Part shown: positions 15,132-22,335 of the stretch, one piece after another | How the letters are laid out: each line of letters starts with the position of its first letter | Numbering within the stretch: the first letter of the stretch is position 1 | Virus record (IMG/VR): IMGVR_UViG_3300003323_000304 | Coordinates: 1 to 25,396 of that record | Source of the DNA: a virus | Reading direction: 5' to 3' (one strand) | Length of the DNA stretch: 25,396 nucleotides | The notes under the pieces: model-generated | What the model was told of the DNA's origin: nothing | Databases searched by the model: none | Seen by the model: only the letters and a program-made list of their open reading frames with translations | Translations under genes and position numbers: made by a program

Positions 15132-18100
15132 ATGGCGACTGAGAACGAGAGAGTGCTCGCGGAAGCGGTCTACGAACTGCAGCGGCAGATGATCGCTCTC
15201 GGTGGCGCGCGGCAGCTCCCCTCGTCCACGTTCGACACCGGCGACGGCGTGCTCGGCATCATCGACGCCGCCGCCGCCGGTGCCGGCGCTGCCGCCGCGC
15301 TGCCGGCGATCGAGGAAGGCGTCGAGTACGGCGCCGGCTCGGTCGACGTCCTGCGGACCGAGATCGACGACCAGATGGACGGGCTCGACGACGTCCTGGA
15401 GGACGCCGCCTCGTCGCTCGCCGACGCCCGCGCCGACCTGGACGACGCGCAGGCCCTGATCGACGACAACTTCGAGCAGATGGGCGGCGACGTGCAGGCC
15501 GCGATCGTCGCCGCCGGCACCGCGGAGCAGTCCGCGGAGTACGCCCGCGACCTCGCCGAGCAGGCGGGCACCGACGCGTCGAACGCGAAGAGCCTCGCGC
15601 AGACCGCGCAGTCCGCCGCCGACGACGCGAACAGCGCCGCGCTCGCCGCGTCCGGGCTCGCGGCCGCGAAGGGCGAAGTCATCGTGCAGGTGTCGGCGCC
15701 GACCGGCTCCCGCGCGAACCCGGCGAACCTGTGGATCGACGTCACCCTCGACGCGAACGGGAAGCCGAAGAACACCCCGAACCGGTACAACACGACGACG
15801 TCGAAGTGGGAGCCGATCACCGACCAGAAGGTGATCGACGCCGCAGCGGTCGCCGCTGCAGCGCAATCCGCGGCCGCGACCGCGAAGAGCGCGGCCGACA
15901 CCGCCGACGCGAAGGCTGTCGCCGCGCAGGGGTCGGCGGACACCGCGCAGCAGACCGCGAACAACGCCGGACAGGCAGCCGCGGCCGCGCAGACCGCCGC
16001 TGACCAGGCGCGCACTGCCGCCGCTGTCGCTGCCGCGAAGGCCGTCTCGGTCGCCGCCGGTGTGCTCGTGAACGGCAGCGCGGAGTTCGACTTCGACTCG
16101 TGGGAAGCTGCCGGGAAGGGCACGATCGCCGTCCAGTCGACGAAGCGTCGCAGCGGCTCGAAGGCATGGCAGGTCGACCAGAACGGCGAGATCGTCCAGG
16201 GTTACTTCCCCGTGAAGGCCGGGGACACCTGGCGGTTCCGCGGGTGGTTCGCGGTCGACAACGCCGGCAACGTGTCCGGTCAGAACGGCGGGTTGCGCCT
16301 GCAGAAGTACAACGCCGCCGCCTCGTCTCCCGCGTGGTCCGACGCTGGGTCCTACAACCCGGGTAGCACCCCACGCGCCGACTTCACGATGGGCGAGGTG
16401 CTCTACACCGTGCCCGCGGACGTGACGCACCTCCGCGCACGCCTGGCGTTTGCGAACCCGGCCGGGATCCGGGTCTACTTCGACGACGTCGAGCTCGTGA
16501 ACGTCACCGACGCGAAGGCCGCGGCCGACGCCGCGGACACTGCGAAGGCAGCCGCGCAAGCCGCGCAGACGACAGCGGACCAGGCGAAGACCGCCGCGTC
16601 GAGCGCGCAGGGCGCCGCGGACGCCGCGCAGCGCACGGCCGACACTGCGAAGGCGAACGCGGCGACGGCGCAGACCGCGGCGGACAACGCGAACTCGCAG
16701 GCGCTCGCCGCTGCCGGCATCGCCAACGGCAAGGGGAAGGTGATCGTGCAGGTGTCGGCCCCGACCGGGGCGAATGCCGCGGCCGAGAACCTGTGGATCG
16801 ACATTTCGACGAACGCGTCCGGGGTGCCGAAGAACACCCCGAACCGCTGGAACTCGTCGACGTCGAAGTGGGAAGTCATCACCGACCAGAAGGTCGTCGA
16901 TGCTGCGGCCGCTGCGGCGACCGCGCAGAGCACGGCCGACACTGCGAAGGCGAACGCGGCGACCGCGCAGAGCACCGCGGACACGGCGAAGTCGAACGCG
17001 GCAGCGGCGCAGACCACGGCCGACCAGGCGAAGTCGGCGGCGGCGACCGCGCAGACCGCGGCCGACAACGCGAACTCGCAGGCGCTCACGGCGACGGGCC
17101 TCGCGAACGGCAAGGGGCGCGTGATCTACCAGGCGAGCGCACCCACGGGCACGAACGCGAACGCACAGAACCTGTGGATCCGGACGACCGATAACACGCC
17201 GTGGACGTACAACGGCAGCACGTGGGTGCAGGTCACGGACAAGACGGCGACCGACGCGGCGGCTGCGGCTGCTGCGGCGAACACCGCGGCGCAGAACGCG
17301 AAGGCGGCAGCCGACGCGGCGCAGGCCACGGCGAACGGTCGGCCGCTGATCCTGTTCTCGACGTCGGGTCCGTCCGGGAACGCGCCGACCGGGTCGACGT
17401 GGTTCCAGGTGAACACCGCGCAGTCGGTCGTCGGGCAGTGGCAGCAGACGGGCTCGGCGACGTCGCCCGTGTGGACGGCCCGGCCGATCACGTCCGAGGT
17501 GATCGCGAACCTGGACGTCGGGAAGCTCACCGCCGGGACGGCGGCGATCGCGACCGTCGTCGCGCAGAAGATCGCAGCGAGCACTGCCTCGTTCCAGACC
17601 GTGAACGTCGCGAACCTGTTCGTGACCTCGGGCGCGACGATGCAGCAGGCCGTGATCGACTACCTCTTCGCGAACGTCGTCATGGCGAAGAAGATCACCG
17701 CGGACATGATCGACGTCAACTCGCTGAACGGCGTCACGCTGACGGGGACCGTGATCCGGTCGGCGGCGTCCGGCCGACGGCTGGAGATCTTGCAGACCGA
17801 GGTCGTGTTCTACAACGACAACACCAGGGCCGGATCGATCCGAGGTGACTTCGGTCCGACCGGGTACGGCGGTCTGGTGCTCCGCATCGGCGATTGGTTG
17901 AGCGCCGGCCCGCTGGAGGCGCAGGGATCGAACACCGACCCGGCGTTCTACCAGACGACGCTGCTCAATCAGGGCGACTTCAACAACACCGGGACGATCC
18001 GAGCGAGCCGCGGCGGATCGAAGCCGAACGGCAAGGTGTCGCAGATGATCTCCGACGAGTTCGTTCTCGAATGGGGGAGTCCGCTCGACAACACCGGCGA

Positions 18101-18521
18101 GGGCCGGCGCCGGCGGGTCTTCGCGACCATCGACATGACGAACGGCATCGCGAAGGTCGACGCGGACGACTTCACAGTGAGAGGGACGTCGATCACCGCG
18201 GACACCGGGTGGAAGGACATTCCGGGCGTCCCGTCGACGATCAACTCGTTCGCGTACTACCGCGTGATCGGGAACCGGGTCTACCTCCGAGGTAGCTTCC
18301 AGCGTCCGAATCAAGCGCAGTTCGTGAACGGCTACACCCCCGTGGGGACCCTCCCCGCCGGCGCCCGCCCGTCGCAGTACATGCGCGTCGCGATCTCGAT
18401 GTACAACGGCATCACGGCGAACCTCATCATCGGCACCGACGGCTACATGCAGGTGGGCGCTTCGACCGGCGCCACCGCGGACACGGTCTACGTCGGCGGC
18501 GTCAACTTCCTGAACAACTAG
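15132..18521 (+). CDS. Large modular tail fibre / receptor-binding protein
   Basis: This 1129-aa protein has GGAGG upstream of the ATG. Domains in order: an attachment region (1-110) beginning MATENERVLAEAVYELQRQM; Ala-rich helical stalks; module A at about 178-238 (VQVSAPTG, NLWID, SKWEPITDQKV); a beta-sandwich about 311-461 resembling a carbohydrate-binding module (VNGSAEFDFDSWEAAGKG to VYFDDVELVNV); more stalk; module A copies at about 533-592 and 660-709, with a degenerate fourth at 736-783. The region about 784-930 (KKITADMIDVNSLNGVTLTG) is typical of siphophage tail-tip fibres. The final domain (about 1024-1129) reads FAYYRVIGNRVYLRGSF to LPAGARPSQY and resembles receptor-binding tips. 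It probably recognises a cell-wall glycan. Repeats inside it are listed separately. Confidence 0.88.
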   Translation: MATENERVLAEAVYELQRQMIALGGARQLPSSTFDTGDGVLGIIDAAAAGAGAAAALPAIEEGVEYGAGSVDVLRTEIDDQMDGLDDVLEDAASSLADARADLDDAQALIDDNFEQMGGDVQAAIVAAGTAEQSAEYARDLAEQAGTDASNAKSLAQTAQSAADDANSAALAASGLAAAKGEVIVQVSAPTGSRANPANLWIDVTLDANGKPKNTPNRYNTTTSKWEPITDQKVIDAAAVAAAAQSAAATAKSAADTADAKAVAAQGSADTAQQTANNAGQAAAAAQTAADQARTAAAVAAAKAVSVAAGVLVNGSAEFDFDSWEAAGKGTIAVQSTKRRSGSKAWQVDQNGEIVQGYFPVKAGDTWRFRGWFAVDNAGNVSGQNGGLRLQKYNAAASSPAWSDAGSYNPGSTPRADFTMGEVLYTVPADVTHLRARLAFANPAGIRVYFDDVELVNVTDAKAAADAADTAKAAAQAAQTTADQAKTAASSAQGAADAAQRTADTAKANAATAQTAADNANSQALAAAGIANGKGKVIVQVSAPTGANAAAENLWIDISTNASGVPKNTPNRWNSSTSKWEVITDQKVVDAAAAAATAQSTADTAKANAATAQSTADTAKSNAAAAQTTADQAKSAAATAQTAADNANSQALTATGLANGKGRVIYQASAPTGTNANAQNLWIRTTDNTPWTYNGSTWVQVTDKTATDAAAAAAAANTAAQNAKAAADAAQATANGRPLILFSTSGPSGNAPTGSTWFQVNTAQSVVGQWQQTGSATSPVWTARPITSEVIANLDVGKLTAGTAAIATVVAQKIAASTASFQTVNVANLFVTSGATMQQAVIDYLFANVVMAKKITADMIDVNSLNGVTLTGTVIRSAASGRRLEILQTEVVFYNDNTRAGSIRGDFGPTGYGGLVLRIGDWLSAGPLEAQGSNTDPAFYQTTLLNQGDFNNTGTIRASRGGSKPNGKVSQMISDEFVLEWGSPLDNTGEGRRRRVFATIDMTNGIAKVDADDFTVRGTSITADTGWKDIPGVPSTINSFAYYRVIGNRVYLRGSFQRPNQAQFVNGYTPVGTLPAGARPSQYMRVAISMYNGITANLIIGTDGYMQVGASTGATADTVYVGGVNFLNN
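16633..16666 (+). repeat. 34-bp perfect direct repeat in fibre gene, copy 1
   Basis: The 34 bases starting GCACGGCCGACACTGCGAAG recur identically at 16930-16963, 297 nt (99 codons) apart and in the same frame. They encode the stalk sequence TADTAKANAAT. Confidence 0.8.
16930..16963 (+). repeat. 34-bp perfect direct repeat in fibre gene, copy 2
   Basis: Second copy of the 34-bp stalk repeat at 16633-16666, identical throughout. A further 36-nt near-repeat with one mismatch links 16671-16706 to 17052-17087 (381 nt, 127 codons apart), also in frame. Confidence 0.8.
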
Positions 18522-18536
18522 CAGAAGGGCAACACC

Positions 18537-18917
18537 ATGACGGAGTTCCAGAAGCGCCCCGAGAAGGTCGAGGCGCTGCAGACCACCGACGAGAACCTCG
18601 ACGAAGCCGCGGCACTCGCCGGCGGGTGGGTCGGCGAGGACGGCACGCTGATGCTCCCGCTCTACGGCGAGGGCAGCGAGGTGCCGATCGAGACGGGGTG
18701 GTTCGTGTGGCACGACGCCTCCGGGCCGCGCGCGTGCGAGCCCGCGCAGTTCCTGGACGAGTGGGCGGAGGTCACCGACGGCCCGACGACCCGGCAGCGC
18801 GTCGAGTCGCTCGAAGCTCGCATCGAGGCGGTCGCCGAGCAGGCAGCCGCCGCGGAGCGAACCGCGGTCGAAGCGGCGGGGGCCGCGGCCGCGGCGGCGG
18901 CGGGAGCTACCTCGTGA
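18537..18917 (+). CDS. Small conserved phage protein preceding endolysin
   Basis: This 126-aa protein begins MTEFQKRPEKVEALQTTDEN and continues GGWVGEDGTLMLP, then ETGWFVWHDASGPRACEPAQ followed by FLDEWAEV. This is the layout of a widespread small phage protein with an N-terminal RP-x-x-VEA strand, a central GDW-like strand and a final KPDIF-x-x-TYEPV-like strand. Here the usual lysine-proline motif has become CEPAQF. It has an added C-terminal helix (about 88-126) that is Glu/Ala-rich and coiled-coil-like. The function of the family is not established as far as I know. An AGAAGGG site lies upstream, and the stop overlaps the endolysin start (GTGA), so the two are translationally coupled. Confidence 0.8.
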   Translation: MTEFQKRPEKVEALQTTDENLDEAAALAGGWVGEDGTLMLPLYGEGSEVPIETGWFVWHDASGPRACEPAQFLDEWAEVTDGPTTRQRVESLEARIEAVAEQAAAAERTAVEAAGAAAAAAAGATS

Positions 18918-19774
18918 GCCTCGCGCGGAAGACCGCGCAGGCCGCGCTGAACTACGCGCTCTCGCTCGTCGGCCGGTCCCGGAAGCTCGGGAACGCCGTG
19001 TGGACGAACTCGGCAGTGATCGACGACTGCGCGAGGTTCTGCTCGCACGTGCTCTTCGGGGGGAACCCCGGCCCGATCTCGTGGGTCGACACGTTCAAGA
19101 CCGCCGGCGACGGTAGCTACCACCGCGGGAAGGCGGGCCTGCAGCCGGGCGACGTCGTCCTGTTCGACTGGGAGGGGAACGGCGTCGGGAACCACGTCGA
19201 GTTCTGTCTCACCTCGCCGAGCTCGACCGGCGCGTTCACGACCGTGGGCGCGAACGGATCCGACACGGTCGCCGTGAAGGTCCGGAACCGGAACGGCTAC
19301 GTGCTCGGCTACTTCCGCCCCGCCTGGGGATCCGCATCACCGACCCCGGGGCAGCCGCAGCCGGGAACCGACAAGGAAGGCACCACCGTGACCGCGAACA
19401 TGTACAAGCGTCCCGACGGGACCGTGAACCTGATCGACCCGAACGGCGTCCAGGACTGGCACGTCCCGAACACCGATTACGTGAACCTGATCGGGTCGCT
19501 CGGGATCACCGCGCAGAAGACCCCGAAGAGCGTCCCGGCGAACGTGTTCTCGTTCCTGCAGACGCTCGCCGGGCAGAACCGCGCGGCGATCGCCGCCGCG
19601 GTCTGGGACCGGTCGCTCTCCGGGAGCAACGGCTCGCACAAGGCGGGCGAGCGCCTCGTCGGCGCCGACACGAAGGCGGGCACCGCGAAGGTGACCATCG
19701 ACGCGAAGGCGACCGACACCATCGCGGCGGGCGTGTTCTCGCGCATCGCCGCCCTGTTCACCTCGAAGAAGTAG
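18914..19774 (+). CDS. Endolysin with CHAP domain
   Basis: This 286-aa protein uses a GTG start overlapping the preceding stop, with GGGAG 7 nt upstream. CHAP domains are cysteine amidases/endopeptidases that cut peptidoglycan at lysis. Catalytic residues are visible: Cys39 in IDDCARFCSHVLFG and His94 in VGNHVEFCL, with Glu96 as possible third residue; the LQPGDVVLFDWEG strand between them is typical. A Pro/Gly linker (about 139-158) leads to a C-terminal region (159-286) with VNLIDPNGVQDWHVPNTDYV and then AVWDRSLSGSNGSHKAGERL, presumably cell-wall binding or multimerising. It lacks a signal peptide, so release depends on a holin, and membrane-protein genes follow. An in-frame internal start at the linker is annotated separately. 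Confidence 0.9.
   Translation: MSLARKTAQAALNYALSLVGRSRKLGNAVWTNSAVIDDCARFCSHVLFGGNPGPISWVDTFKTAGDGSYHRGKAGLQPGDVVLFDWEGNGVGNHVEFCLTSPSSTGAFTTVGANGSDTVAVKVRNRNGYVLGYFRPAWGSASPTPGQPQPGTDKEGTTVTANMYKRPDGTVNLIDPNGVQDWHVPNTDYVNLIGSLGITAQKTPKSVPANVFSFLQTLAGQNRAAIAAAVWDRSLSGSNGSHKAGERLVGADTKAGTAKVTIDAKATDTIAAGVFSRIAALFTSKK
19373..19390 (+). promoter_or_regulatory. Candidate internal ribosome binding site and start in endolysin
   Basis: AAGGAAGG (19373-19380) precedes an in-frame GTG at 19388 by 7 nt, exactly at the linker between the CHAP domain and the C-terminal region. Initiation here would give a free 128-aa C-terminal domain (19388-19774) beginning M-TANMYKRPDGT. The site is stronger than the one in front of the full-length start. 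Confidence 0.55.
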
Positions 19775-19787
19775 GGAAGGTCCAGAC

Positions 19788-20234
19788 ATGGCCGAGCAGA
19801 ACACCACCGCCTACCAGCTCGGGCGGATCCGGAAGGCGATCGTCGCCGGCGCTGCCGCGGGCGCCGCAGCCGTGTGGGCGCTCGTCGCGCCGCCGTTCAC
19901 CGGCGGCACGAGCGTGACGGGCATCCTCGCCGACGGCAAGATCGACGCGAACGAGGTCGGGACGTGCATCGGGACGTTCTTCGTCGTCGGCGTCCCCGCC
20001 GGCTACCTCGCGTGGCAGACGCCGAACAAGCCGGCGCGACACGAGTCCCCGGACGTCGCGACCGCCGCCGCGCAGGTCGAGGTGCAGAACCTCGCGCTGC
20101 CGGAGATCACCGCCGCCGACGTCGAGCTCGTGTCCGAGGACGCGCCGACCGACGCCTTCCTGCCTGACCCCGGCGAGTCCGCCGCGGGCGTGCCGACGAA
20201 GGACGGCGACGGGCGCGGACGGCACGAGGCATGA
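19788..20234 (+). CDS. Holin-like membrane protein (two TM)
   Basis: This 148-aa protein follows the endolysin by 13 nt, with GGGAAGG before the ATG. Residues 17-37 (AIVAGAAAGAAAVWALVAPP) and 57-76 (VGTCIGTFFVVGVPAGYLAW) are hydrophobic spans; the loop between carries Asp and Lys. The C-terminal half is hydrophilic and acidic (AADVELVSEDAPTDAFLPD), probably cytoplasmic. Size, two spans and position beside the endolysin fit a class II-type holin, which opens the membrane for endolysin release. The sequence alone cannot separate holin from other small membrane proteins. The stop overlaps the next ATG (ATGA). Confidence 0.75.
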   Translation: MAEQNTTAYQLGRIRKAIVAGAAAGAAAVWALVAPPFTGGTSVTGILADGKIDANEVGTCIGTFFVVGVPAGYLAWQTPNKPARHESPDVATAAAQVEVQNLALPEITAADVELVSEDAPTDAFLPDPGESAAGVPTKDGDGRGRHEA

Positions 20235-20704
20235 AGCGGATCCGGCGCCAGATCGCACGCGTGATCGCCGCGTCGATCTGGCGACCGGACGCCGTCGGGG
20301 CGAAGGACAAGCGCCTGTCGTCGATGCTGCAGGGCTACCTGCCGCGGTTCTACTTCGCGTGCGTGCTCTTCGGTCTGCTCGGCGCGATCGGGGGGATCCC
20401 GGCGCTGCGCGACACCTTCGGCGAGGACTTCGCGACGACGCTCGGGCTCGCGATCGCGATCACCGCGGCAGCCGCTGGCGCCGGCGAAGCGTTCCCCGAA
20501 CGTCTCTGGCGGTTCGAGTTCTTCGGCGCCGCCACGCTGTCCGGCCTGATCGTGCTCTACGCGGCCGCGGTCGTGCTCGCCGGGCTGTTCGCCGGCGACC
20601 CGGGCCGGGCGGCGGTCGGCGCGGCGATCTACGCGATGCAGATCCTCCCGCAGTGGCGCTTCCGCGACGTGCGAGCAGACCGGGAGGTGAACGGCTGGCG
20701 ATGA
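20231..20704 (+). CDS. Membrane protein (about four TM), holin candidate
   Basis: This 157-aa protein is coupled to the previous gene through an ATGA overlap. A basic N-terminus (MKRIRRQIARVIAASIWRPD) precedes hydrophobic segments at about residues 40-59 (FYFACVLFGLLGAIGGIPAL), 68-88, 96-120 (GAATLSGLIVLYAAAVVLAG) and 125-141. Charged residues at the ends suggest a compact four-span bundle. It could be a second holin or an antiholin, or a lysis accessory protein. I do not recognise the family precisely. Position within the lysis cassette is the main evidence. Confidence 0.7.
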   Translation: MKRIRRQIARVIAASIWRPDAVGAKDKRLSSMLQGYLPRFYFACVLFGLLGAIGGIPALRDTFGEDFATTLGLAIAITAAAAGAGEAFPERLWRFEFFGAATLSGLIVLYAAAVVLAGLFAGDPGRAAVGAAIYAMQILPQWRFRDVRADREVNGWR

Positions 20705-21213
20705 TCTTCGAGAACGGGATCGATCAGGGCACGGCGTCCGTGATCGGCGCGATCCTCGTCTTCGCGGGGGTCGTCGTCACCACCCGGCGCGCAAGCCGGG
20801 AGAGCAAGGACAAGGCCGAAGAGCAGAAGGAGGCGCAGGCGCAGGTCGTCGCAGAGGCGCTCCCGTTCGCGGAGAACCTCGACCTGACGAAGTACATCCG
20901 AGACGAGGTCCGAGAGGGGGTCCGGGTCGAGACAGAGCAGCTCCGGGCCGATCGCGATCAGGATCGTGCCGAACTCAACGACATGAAGAAGATCCTCGTC
21001 AACGCGTACGACCGGGTGGACCGGCTGCGGCACGGGTTCCTGCAGCACGTCGACAACGTGCGGCGGCAGTGGGGCCGGGCGGAACAGCCGCCGCCCGTCG
21101 CGCCGCACATGATGGAGCTACTAGAGGACTCGGACGGGGACACCTGGACTCGGATCCGGATCCAGCAGCTCCGCGAGAGCGTGCCCGACGACGACAACGA
21201 GAGCTACGGCTGA
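20701..21213 (+). CDS. Single-TM coiled-coil membrane protein in lysis cassette
   Basis: This 170-aa protein starts at the ATG overlapping the previous stop. Residues about 11-29 (SVIGAILVFAGVVVTTRRAS) form one membrane span near the N-terminus. Residues 30-125 are highly charged and helical (KAEEQKEAQAQVVAEA, VETEQLRADRDQDRAEL), and the C-terminus is acidic. This layout resembles the i-spanin-like or accessory membrane proteins found at the end of lysis cassettes in actinophages, but no outer-membrane partner is visible and the topology is unproven. It is the last gene before the strong terminator at 21221. Confidence 0.72.
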   Translation: MIFENGIDQGTASVIGAILVFAGVVVTTRRASRESKDKAEEQKEAQAQVVAEALPFAENLDLTKYIRDEVREGVRVETEQLRADRDQDRAELNDMKKILVNAYDRVDRLRHGFLQHVDNVRRQWGRAEQPPPVAPHMMELLEDSDGDTWTRIRIQQLRESVPDDDNESYG

Positions 21214-21287: not shown

Positions 21288-21313
21288 CCCGGACGGATCA
21301 TCGGCCGTCCGGG
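21288..21313 (-). terminator. Hairpin over the 3' end of the surface protein gene
   Basis: CCCGGACGG (21288-21296) and CCGTCCGGG (21305-21313) form a perfect 9-bp stem with an 8-nt loop that spans the stop codon of the minus-strand gene. There is no T-run beyond it in the minus direction, so it may be only a 3' end stabiliser or weak terminator. Confidence 0.4.
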
Positions 21314-22335
21314 GTGCTGTTCGCCCGGGAGCGGGCCGCACGGCGCCGCACGAGCACGATCCCGCCGGACGCCATGAGTGCGAGCGCGATCAGAGCGGGC
21401 CAGAGCAGGTCGTCGGCGCCCGTGAAGGCGAGTTCACGGCTGCCGTTCGAGGTGTCGGCCGCGACCGGCGCCTTGGAACTGGGGCCGGAGGGCGTATTCG
21501 TAGCAGGCGTGTCCGTGGGCGACGGGACCGTCGGGGTCGACGCCGAGGGCGCGGGCGTAGAGGACGCGGGCGGCGTCGTCCCGGCCGTCGGGCTCGGCGA
21601 ACCCGGCGCGGGGGTCGTCGGAGCGTCGGACGGTTCGGGGGTGGTCGGCTCGCCAGAGGGCGGCGTCGTGCTCGGCTCGTCGGTGGGTGTCGGCGTCGAT
21701 GGGGTGCCTCCCGGGGTGGGCTCGTCGGTCGGGGTCGGGGTGGTCGGCTCGTCGGTGGGCGTCGGCGTCGGCTCGCAGCTCGCGCGCTCCGCGTCGGTCA
21801 GCGGCCGCGTCGAGTAGACGAAGGTCAGCGCCGGGTTGTTCTCGTCCACGAAGTCCCACGAGTTCGTCTCGGCGTTGTAGTAGCTGGTCCACAGGTAGTG
21901 GACGGTCGACACCTTGACGACGCCCGCCGAGCACTGCGGGTCGCCCTCGTGCACGACGACCTTCGTCCGGTCGGCAGGCTTCGGCGGCTTGACCGGCGTC
22001 GTCGGCTCCGGCTCCGGTGCCGGCGTCTCGACAGGGGTCGTCGGCTCCGGCTCGGGCGCGGGCGTCTCGACCGGCGTCGTCGGCTCGGGCTCCGGGGTGA
22101 CGACGGGCGTCGTCGGCTCCGGCTTCGGCGCGCACTCGCCGAGCTTGTCGCCGTGCTTCACGTGCGCCTTCGCCGCCGCGGCGTCGACCGTGATCGTGTG
22201 GCCGTTGTGGCAGAGCGTCACGGGCGTGTGCCCGTGGCCGTGTCCGCCCGTCGCGTACGCGGGTCCGGTGACCCCGCCGCTGACGACGAGCGCGAGGCCG
22301 AGCCCCGCGATCGTCGCGATCGTCCGCTTTCGCAT
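21298..22335 (-). CDS. Secreted LAxTG sortase-anchored surface protein
   Basis: This 345-aa protein has a signal peptide (basic MRKR, hydrophobic TIATIAGLGLALVVSGGVTG, likely cut after PAYA) and a C-terminal sorting signal: LAFTG at residues 302-306, a hydrophobic span (LLWPALIALALMASGGIVLV) and a basic RRRAARSR tail. LAxTG is the recognition motif of class E sortases of high-GC Actinobacteria. After the signal peptide is a Cys-containing domain (VTLCHNGHTITVDAAAAKAH ending GECAP), then PEPTTPVETPA repeats, then a second Cys domain (QCSAGVVKVSTVHYLWTSYY to ERASC), then Pro/Thr/Ser/Asp-rich wall-spanning repeats. It is a host-type surface protein on the strand opposite to the structural genes. 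The SD AAGGGAA lies 5 nt before the ATG. Function is unknown; receptor masking, adhesion or lysogenic conversion are inferences. Confidence 0.88.
   Translation of the reverse strand: MRKRTIATIAGLGLALVVSGGVTGPAYATGGHGHGHTPVTLCHNGHTITVDAAAAKAHVKHGDKLGECAPKPEPTTPVVTPEPEPTTPVETPAPEPEPTTPVETPAPEPEPTTPVKPPKPADRTKVVVHEGDPQCSAGVVKVSTVHYLWTSYYNAETNSWDFVDENNPALTFVYSTRPLTDAERASCEPTPTPTDEPTTPTPTDEPTPGGTPSTPTPTDEPSTTPPSGEPTTPEPSDAPTTPAPGSPSPTAGTTPPASSTPAPSASTPTVPSPTDTPATNTPSGPSSKAPVAADTSNGSRELAFTGADDLLWPALIALALMASGGIVLVRRRAARSRANSTPDGR
21998..22120 (-). repeat. Tandem repeats in surface protein gene (PEPEPTTPVETPA-like)
   Basis: GTCGTCGGCTCCGGCT-like units recur at 21998, 22037, 22076 and 22109 (periods 39, 39 and 33 nt, all multiples of three). 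They encode 13-residue and 11-residue Pro/Glu/Thr units between the two cysteine-containing domains. A further TPTDEP-rich repeat region lies at about 21640-21780. Confidence 0.75.

Follow-up and report, generated by a model that had tools for sequence, protein, structure and literature searches.

An endolysin gene in the virus record that we analyzed (from IMG/VR, 25,396 bases long, referred to throughout as ‘the window’) contains a second, in-frame ribosome binding site and start codon at the junction between its catalytic domain and its C-terminal domain (CTD). This internal site is conserved beyond codon-level chance across the clade of CHAP lysins to which the gene belongs. From its sequence, the gene very probably encodes a two-polypeptide endolysin, that is, a CHAP–CTD enzyme together with a free, 128-aa CTD translated from the internal start, the two likely assembling with one another. 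We infer that the short product is made, in excess, and that it assembles and binds the cell wall.

The endolysin gene (18914–19774, + strand) has a GTG start, which is aligned also in its closest relative, L002; its full-length product (‘FLP’) is 286 aa long and ends at the TAG at 19772–19774. The CHAP catalytic domain occupies about residues 1–140 (18914–19333), as judged by AlphaFold2 and VIA-align. Block-mean pLDDT in this region is 79–94 up to approximately residue 140, and falls below 50 in residues 142–183. In VIA-align, the enterococcal lysin LysIME-EF1 (6ist_C) ranked first (Z 14.6, 128 residues, rmsd 2.6); no other solved structure matches the CHAP model as well, and the likeness to enterococcal lysins drawn in the sequence-only reading was apt. 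The Pfam CHAP match to the endolysin lies below the family cut-off, and a PDB sequence search with the endolysin profile gave no match. Cys39 and His94, which we take to be the CHAP catalytic pair, are invariant in all 15 aligned rows.

The catalytic domain is followed by a linker rich in Pro and Gln (19334–19387, + strand; SPTPGQPQPGTDKEG), recognizable from the sequence and from its low pLDDT, and within it lies the internal ribosome binding site. Because the CHAP model ends at about residue 140 and the linker comes next, the internal start can be placed at the domain junction, where the sequence-only reading had put it. The site consists of the Shine–Dalgarno sequence (SD) AAGGAAGG (19373–19380), a 7-nt spacer, CACCACC (19381–19387), and an internal in-frame GTG (iTSS; 19388–19390), all on the + strand; every coordinate proposed for it earlier proved right on direct reading. 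Counted in the 286-aa frame, the GTG is codon 159, and from it 128 codons are open to the stop at 19774, so the length of 128 aa claimed for the product stands. In the window the SD core, taken as an exact match, is 5 nt long (AAGGA), with a duplex energy of −7.4 kcal/mol—good, if not maximal. The gene's own GTG, at 18914, overlaps the stop codon TGA that ends the preceding gene (GTGA, 18914–18917), a 126-aa reading frame of unknown function (phrog_1810; 18537–18917, + strand). Since that stop overlaps the endolysin start, translation of the full-length protein may be coupled to the preceding gene, and we think that it probably is. The RNA around the endolysin start is predicted to be very stable.

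On the reading we prefer, some ribosomes would start at 18914, probably by coupling to the preceding gene, and make the CHAP–CTD enzyme. Others would start at AAGGAAGG-N7-GTG (19388) and make the 128-aa CTD alone, probably in excess. The free CTDs would most likely assemble with the CTD of the full-length enzyme, to give one catalytic domain carried on several wall-binding domains. Two-polypeptide endolysins are a known kind, with stoichiometries of 1:3, 2:2 and 1:5 described (PMC9430671). In LysIME-EF1, a CHAP lysin of Enterococcus phage IME-EF1, translation from an internal AAGGAGA and ATG, at M168, is proven to yield free binding domains; the complex comprises one full-length chain and three such domains, and activity is nearly lost once the domain contacts are broken (PMC7098653). 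The window's gene resembles that of LysIME-EF1 in joining CHAP and a small CTD in a single gene, and in having an in-frame internal SD and start, the latter at the first residue of the CTD in LysIME-EF1. It differs in the size of the CTD (128 aa versus 70), in using GTG rather than ATG, and in a host that is probably actinobacterial. Lys170 is reported to form a similar 1 + 3 complex (PMC7098653, PMC9430671). In the clostridial lysins CTP1L, CD27L and CS74L, the secondary translation product is the wall-binding domain, and associates with the full-length form (PMC4777826, PMC9430671); by this description they are like our gene, whose would-be short product is also the C-terminal domain. LysA (Gp2) of mycobacteriophage Ms6, an actinobacterial phage, likewise has an in-frame internal start. 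That start sits between two catalytic domains (PMC9430671), so the short product is still catalytic, whereas the internal start in the window precedes a C-terminal domain rather than a second catalytic one.

Rather unlikely, but to be taken seriously, is that the short domain is made and acts alone, perhaps by competing for binding to wall debris or by timing lysis. The products of LysJavan488 were not seen to associate, and Ms6 needs both of its products for proper timing of lysis; the same source, however, places the non-associating cases among lysins with two catalytic domains, and describes heteromers only for lysins with one, as here (PMC9430671). Assembly with the full-length enzyme is the reading that we retain.

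For the present group of phages, two-polypeptide endolysins are apparently unreported. The PhaLP survey predicted in-frame internal starts in 51.5% of 3,780 endolysins of Gram-positive and mycobacterial phages, and in 15.2% of portal proteins, its yardstick for false positives; neither ‘Curtobacterium’ nor ‘Microbacterium’ occurs in its main text (PMC9430671). Curtobacterium prophages are described as including two-domain CHAP lysins, and two peptidase-type clusters as having CTDs structurally like those of enterococcal phage lysins, in one case IMEEF1; the main text of that paper contains none of the terms ‘internal start’, ‘alternative start’, ‘isoform’ and ‘Shine’ (PMC9862828). A literature search confined to the main text of freely available journal papers found none linking Curtobacterium phage endolysins with internal starts.

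The relatives of the gene came from viral contigs, genomes and Curtobacterium phage Barebow. After removal of duplicates of the same gene, 20 distinct CHAP-clade genes remained: the window's, L002–L011, L015, L017, L018, L019, L030, L031, L073, L074 and L077, of which L004 and L005 are nearly identical. We left out matches weaker than E 1e-39 (L032–L065), which end at CHAP, have other long tails, or are short (L038, among these, is cut). L012, a short match in repetitive sequence, was not used either. Named hosts among the 20 are mainly Curtobacterium, and the host lineage of the window, judged by these relatives, is probably actinobacterial. L002 is the only close, full-length relative: its best segment is 73% identical over residues 1–285, with 93% identity in CHAP and 55% in the CTD. 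Its linker differs, yet AAGGAG, 6 nt and GTG occur at the same place.

The presence of the ribosome binding site and start in related phages had been named beforehand as a check on the idea, and both are found at the junction in 20 of the 20 genes: an SD core no shorter than 4 nt, with an in-frame start (ATG in 13, GTG in seven) 5–11 nt downstream. The core is at least 5 nt long in 16 of them, and at least 6 nt in 10. Among the 131 other internal in-frame starts in the same genes, only 10 have an SD that reaches 4 nt, and a single one reaches 5 nt, although this contrast (20/20 versus 10/131) is biased because the junction start had been chosen for being the best. What is conserved is a nucleotide site and not a peptide, since the SD occupies all three codon phases and encodes different peptides in them. 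The GG core falls in phases 0, 1 and 2 in three, seven and 10 genes, respectively, and the encoded peptides are KEG, RRH, EDD and VGD (in context, KEGTT, NRRHP, TLEDD and PVGDI). Where the SD spells Arg–Arg (CTD groups B and D, and L019), a hand count gives AGG or AGA every time (20 of 20); outside the junction, these two codons account for four of the 295 Arg codons in the same genes. Within group D, the junction start codon of L010 and L015 is GTG, and that of L007, L017, L018 and L077 is ATG; the SD of L077 lies in a different stretch of codons than in the rest of the group.

Conservation of the site persists across a wide variety of CTDs. Grouped by BLASTP linkage (E 1e-3, 28 sequences), the CTDs of the CHAP clade fall into nine groups with no detectable sequence relation to one another. 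The window's C-terminal product (‘CTP’; 19388–19774, + strand), a putative wall-binding or oligomerizing domain, belongs to group A by tblastn, identity and grouping. Group A occurs also on lysins of another catalytic type, the M15 peptidases, and the window's CTD is related to CTDs on M15 endolysins from Curtobacterium phages (E 9e-4 by tblastn, to AddiRose). It matches no Pfam family, and PHROGs gave only weak matches, of unknown function. Its AlphaFold2 model, built on two informative rows, has a pLDDT of about 29–49 and is not interpretable; at this low confidence it shows a long, mostly helical tail. PDB sequence searches with the CTD profile, and with one M15 CTD, gave chance-level matches only, and the CTD profile found nothing at E 1e-5 in 66 Curtobacterium genomes (the genus of G001).

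Against the enterococcal binding domain, the group-A profile aligns in register around a P-T/N-x-x-Y-V motif at an hhalign probability of 4–6%, a score reached by one of 300 column-shuffled decoys for the group-A profile and by 10 of 300 for window + L002; a sequence relation between the CTDs of the window and of LysIME-EF1 is thus only suggestive. Profile comparison, PDB searches and Foldseek revealed no significant link, in sequence or in fold, between the CTDs and known multimerizing binding domains. A group-D CTD, that of L007, modeled at a mean pLDDT of 78, has three strands and two helices; Foldseek found no significant match for it in the PDB (best E 0.44), and profile comparison found no relation between groups A and D. 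PHROGs gave nothing significant for nine further proteins, namely eight other CTDs and one from an M15 lysin, and none of the nine small CTD types has a significant match in the families searched.

Of the M15 lysins with small CTDs, 11 were examined, all from Curtobacterium phages: AddiRose, Serenabean, Pize, Prophecy, Ellison17, Ayka, Brave, Reje, Trapezoid, Teagster and Shayna. Together with Olliecat, Buldak and Elener, they make up 14 of the 25 records found. A PDB sequence search with the M15 lysin profile returned carboxypeptidases. Six of the 11 have a junction SD of at least 5 nt (AddiRose, Serenabean, Pize, Prophecy, Ellison17 and Teagster). Four have a weak, 4-nt match (GGTG in Brave, Reje and Trapezoid; AAGG in Shayna), and Ayka has an ATG at the junction but no SD. 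In L089 and L090, yet another catalytic domain is joined to a group-D-like CTD, with an ATG at the first residue of the CTD and AAAGGGAG upstream. The short CTDs of L030 (2996–3151; CHAP) and L082 (1966–2124; M15) both begin with MTP(E/Q)Q after an acidic stretch; they possibly represent a shared cassette, going by this resemblance, although BLASTP does not link them. More generally, the unit of exchange might, as a tentative proposal, be a cistron-like cassette, comprising a small CTD with its own ribosome binding site and start, that can be swapped under CHAP or M15. A swap of such a cassette would yield a new, two-polypeptide enzyme at once, so that the internal start would serve both as an assembly signal and as a recombination joint. 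Were this so, at least nine unrelated small domains would be independent solutions to one self-assembling wall-binding platform.

The exchange of CTDs between CHAP and M15 lysins would also fit a site that is a relic of fusion or recombination: the CTD would once have been a gene in its own right, and its ribosome binding site and start would have outlasted the fusion but be irrelevant now. The site does resemble ordinary gene starts of the window, such as that at 18537. This reading is improbable. An irrelevant signal is hard to reconcile with a site kept in 20 of 20 CHAP-clade genes, in three codon phases and by way of the rare codons AGG and AGA, or with the Val-to-Met changes at the site in group D, which remain start codons. 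Nor did scans with the CTDs of groups D and B, and of group A from M15 lysins, find any stand-alone CTD gene. One candidate, L104, the fourth group-B match, was rejected as a CTD gene, being an unrelated protein.

It is very improbable that the site arose by chance, from Lys–Glu or acidic linker residues followed by Val or Met that happen to spell an SD and a start. For the window alone, chance would be adequate: an equal or better site appears in 28% of 5000 synonymous recodings of the linker (P = 0.28), because Lys–Glu–Gly tends to spell AAGGAAGG. That the site is more than chance follows from its conservation in the 20 distinct genes and from their summed SD length. In the latter test, fairer than the comparison with other internal starts, the real sequences are set against 5000 synonymous recodings by the best site that each holds in one and the same zone of the linker. 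Over the 20 genes—which are related, and so not independent—the summed SD length is 107, versus 45.4 ± 6.9 after recoding; with one gene per CTD type it is 50, versus 28.7 ± 5.0. Neither total was reached in any of the 5000 recodings. Gene by gene, P is below 0.01 for L003, L007, L010, L015, L017, L018, L019, L073, L074 and L077, moderate (0.02–0.08) for L004, L005 and L009, and unremarkable for the window (0.28), L002 (0.23), L006 (0.28) and L031 (0.34). In three relatives, L008, L011 and L030, the SD falls short of what the encoded amino acids would yield by chance (P 0.91–0.99), which on the face of the sequences looks as if initiation had been tuned down. L008 and L011 have GAA instead of GAG in the junction SD.

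Ten endolysins with other tails—L039, L040, L043, L045, L046, L052 and L053, whose tails are long, and Olliecat, Buldak and Elener—served as controls. In the same zone, just one of the 10 has a 5-nt match (GGTGA, in L045), which again argues against chance; a match of at least 4 nt occurs in four. Olliecat, Buldak and Elener, whose tails are peptidoglycan-binding-like as judged from their repeats, have no junction site. That the SD-like sequence serves only to slow elongating ribosomes at the boundary between the catalytic domain and the CTD, and so to aid folding without initiation, fits its location but is the least credible explanation, as pausing needs no start codon and yet an in-frame ATG or GTG lies 5–11 nt downstream in every one of the 20 genes.

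The strength of initiation was gauged with a simplified score of our own, which combines SD duplex, spacing, start codon and local folding; it is not the RBS Calculator, and it ignores translational coupling. In all 22 genes scored (13 of the 20 in the CHAP clade and nine of the 11 M15 lysins), the junction start came first among the internal starts. As a positive control, the score also puts the proven start of LysIME-EF1, at codon 168, first of seven. Scores at the 22 junctions range from −7.9 to 7.7, versus 9.9–19.8 for the best internal start in nine controls (all but L052), the tails of which are mostly peptidoglycan-binding-like. Within the window, the 16 ORFs taken as genes hold 199 in-frame internal starts, among which GTG 19388 ranks first by this rough measure; its score lies within the range of those ORFs' own starts. 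Compared with the gene's own start in the 21 genes for which that start was scored, the junction scores better in 16, ties in one, and falls behind in four (L003 and L004, barely; L006; and Shayna). In the window the junction scores 7.4 versus 35.9 for the gene's own start, which is probably coupled, something that the score ignores. For this reason, an excess of the short form is something that we infer, and do not read from the score.

If confirmed, two things would be new: that an internal start is kept, lineage-wide, through replacement of the CTD by at least nine unrelated types, and that it is kept, less strictly, on two catalytic families, CHAP and M15. One predicted internal start thereby becomes a testable, lineage-wide rule for Curtobacterium-type phages, namely that uncharacterized small CTDs are joined to different catalytic domains via a conserved ribosome binding site and start codon, and that endolysins with peptidoglycan-binding-like tails, among those examined, have no such junction site. 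Should the short forms be made, the CTDs become candidate self-assembling wall binders, of at least nine unannotated domain types. In that event, too, endolysin annotations in this group would miss a product, and recombinant enzymes without the internal start would misrepresent the native enzyme.

Other features of the window lie close to the endolysin gene. Downstream of it, at 19788–21213, are small ORFs with hydrophobic segments, as judged by eye, and 20231–20704 matches the membrane protein family phrog_21352 (E 9e-17); this is the probable holin, or lysis, region. Upstream of the lysis genes, a very large, Ala-rich ORF with alanine-zipper-like segments (15132–18521) is probably a tail protein. 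Just downstream of the lysis genes, and antisense to them, is a 345-aa ORF (21298–22335, − strand) with a signal-like N-terminus, repeats rich in Pro, Thr and Glu, and a C-terminal LAFTG followed by a hydrophobic stretch and RRR. By eye, this C-terminus resembles an LPXTG-like wall anchor; the only Pfam match is a weak one, to the repeats.
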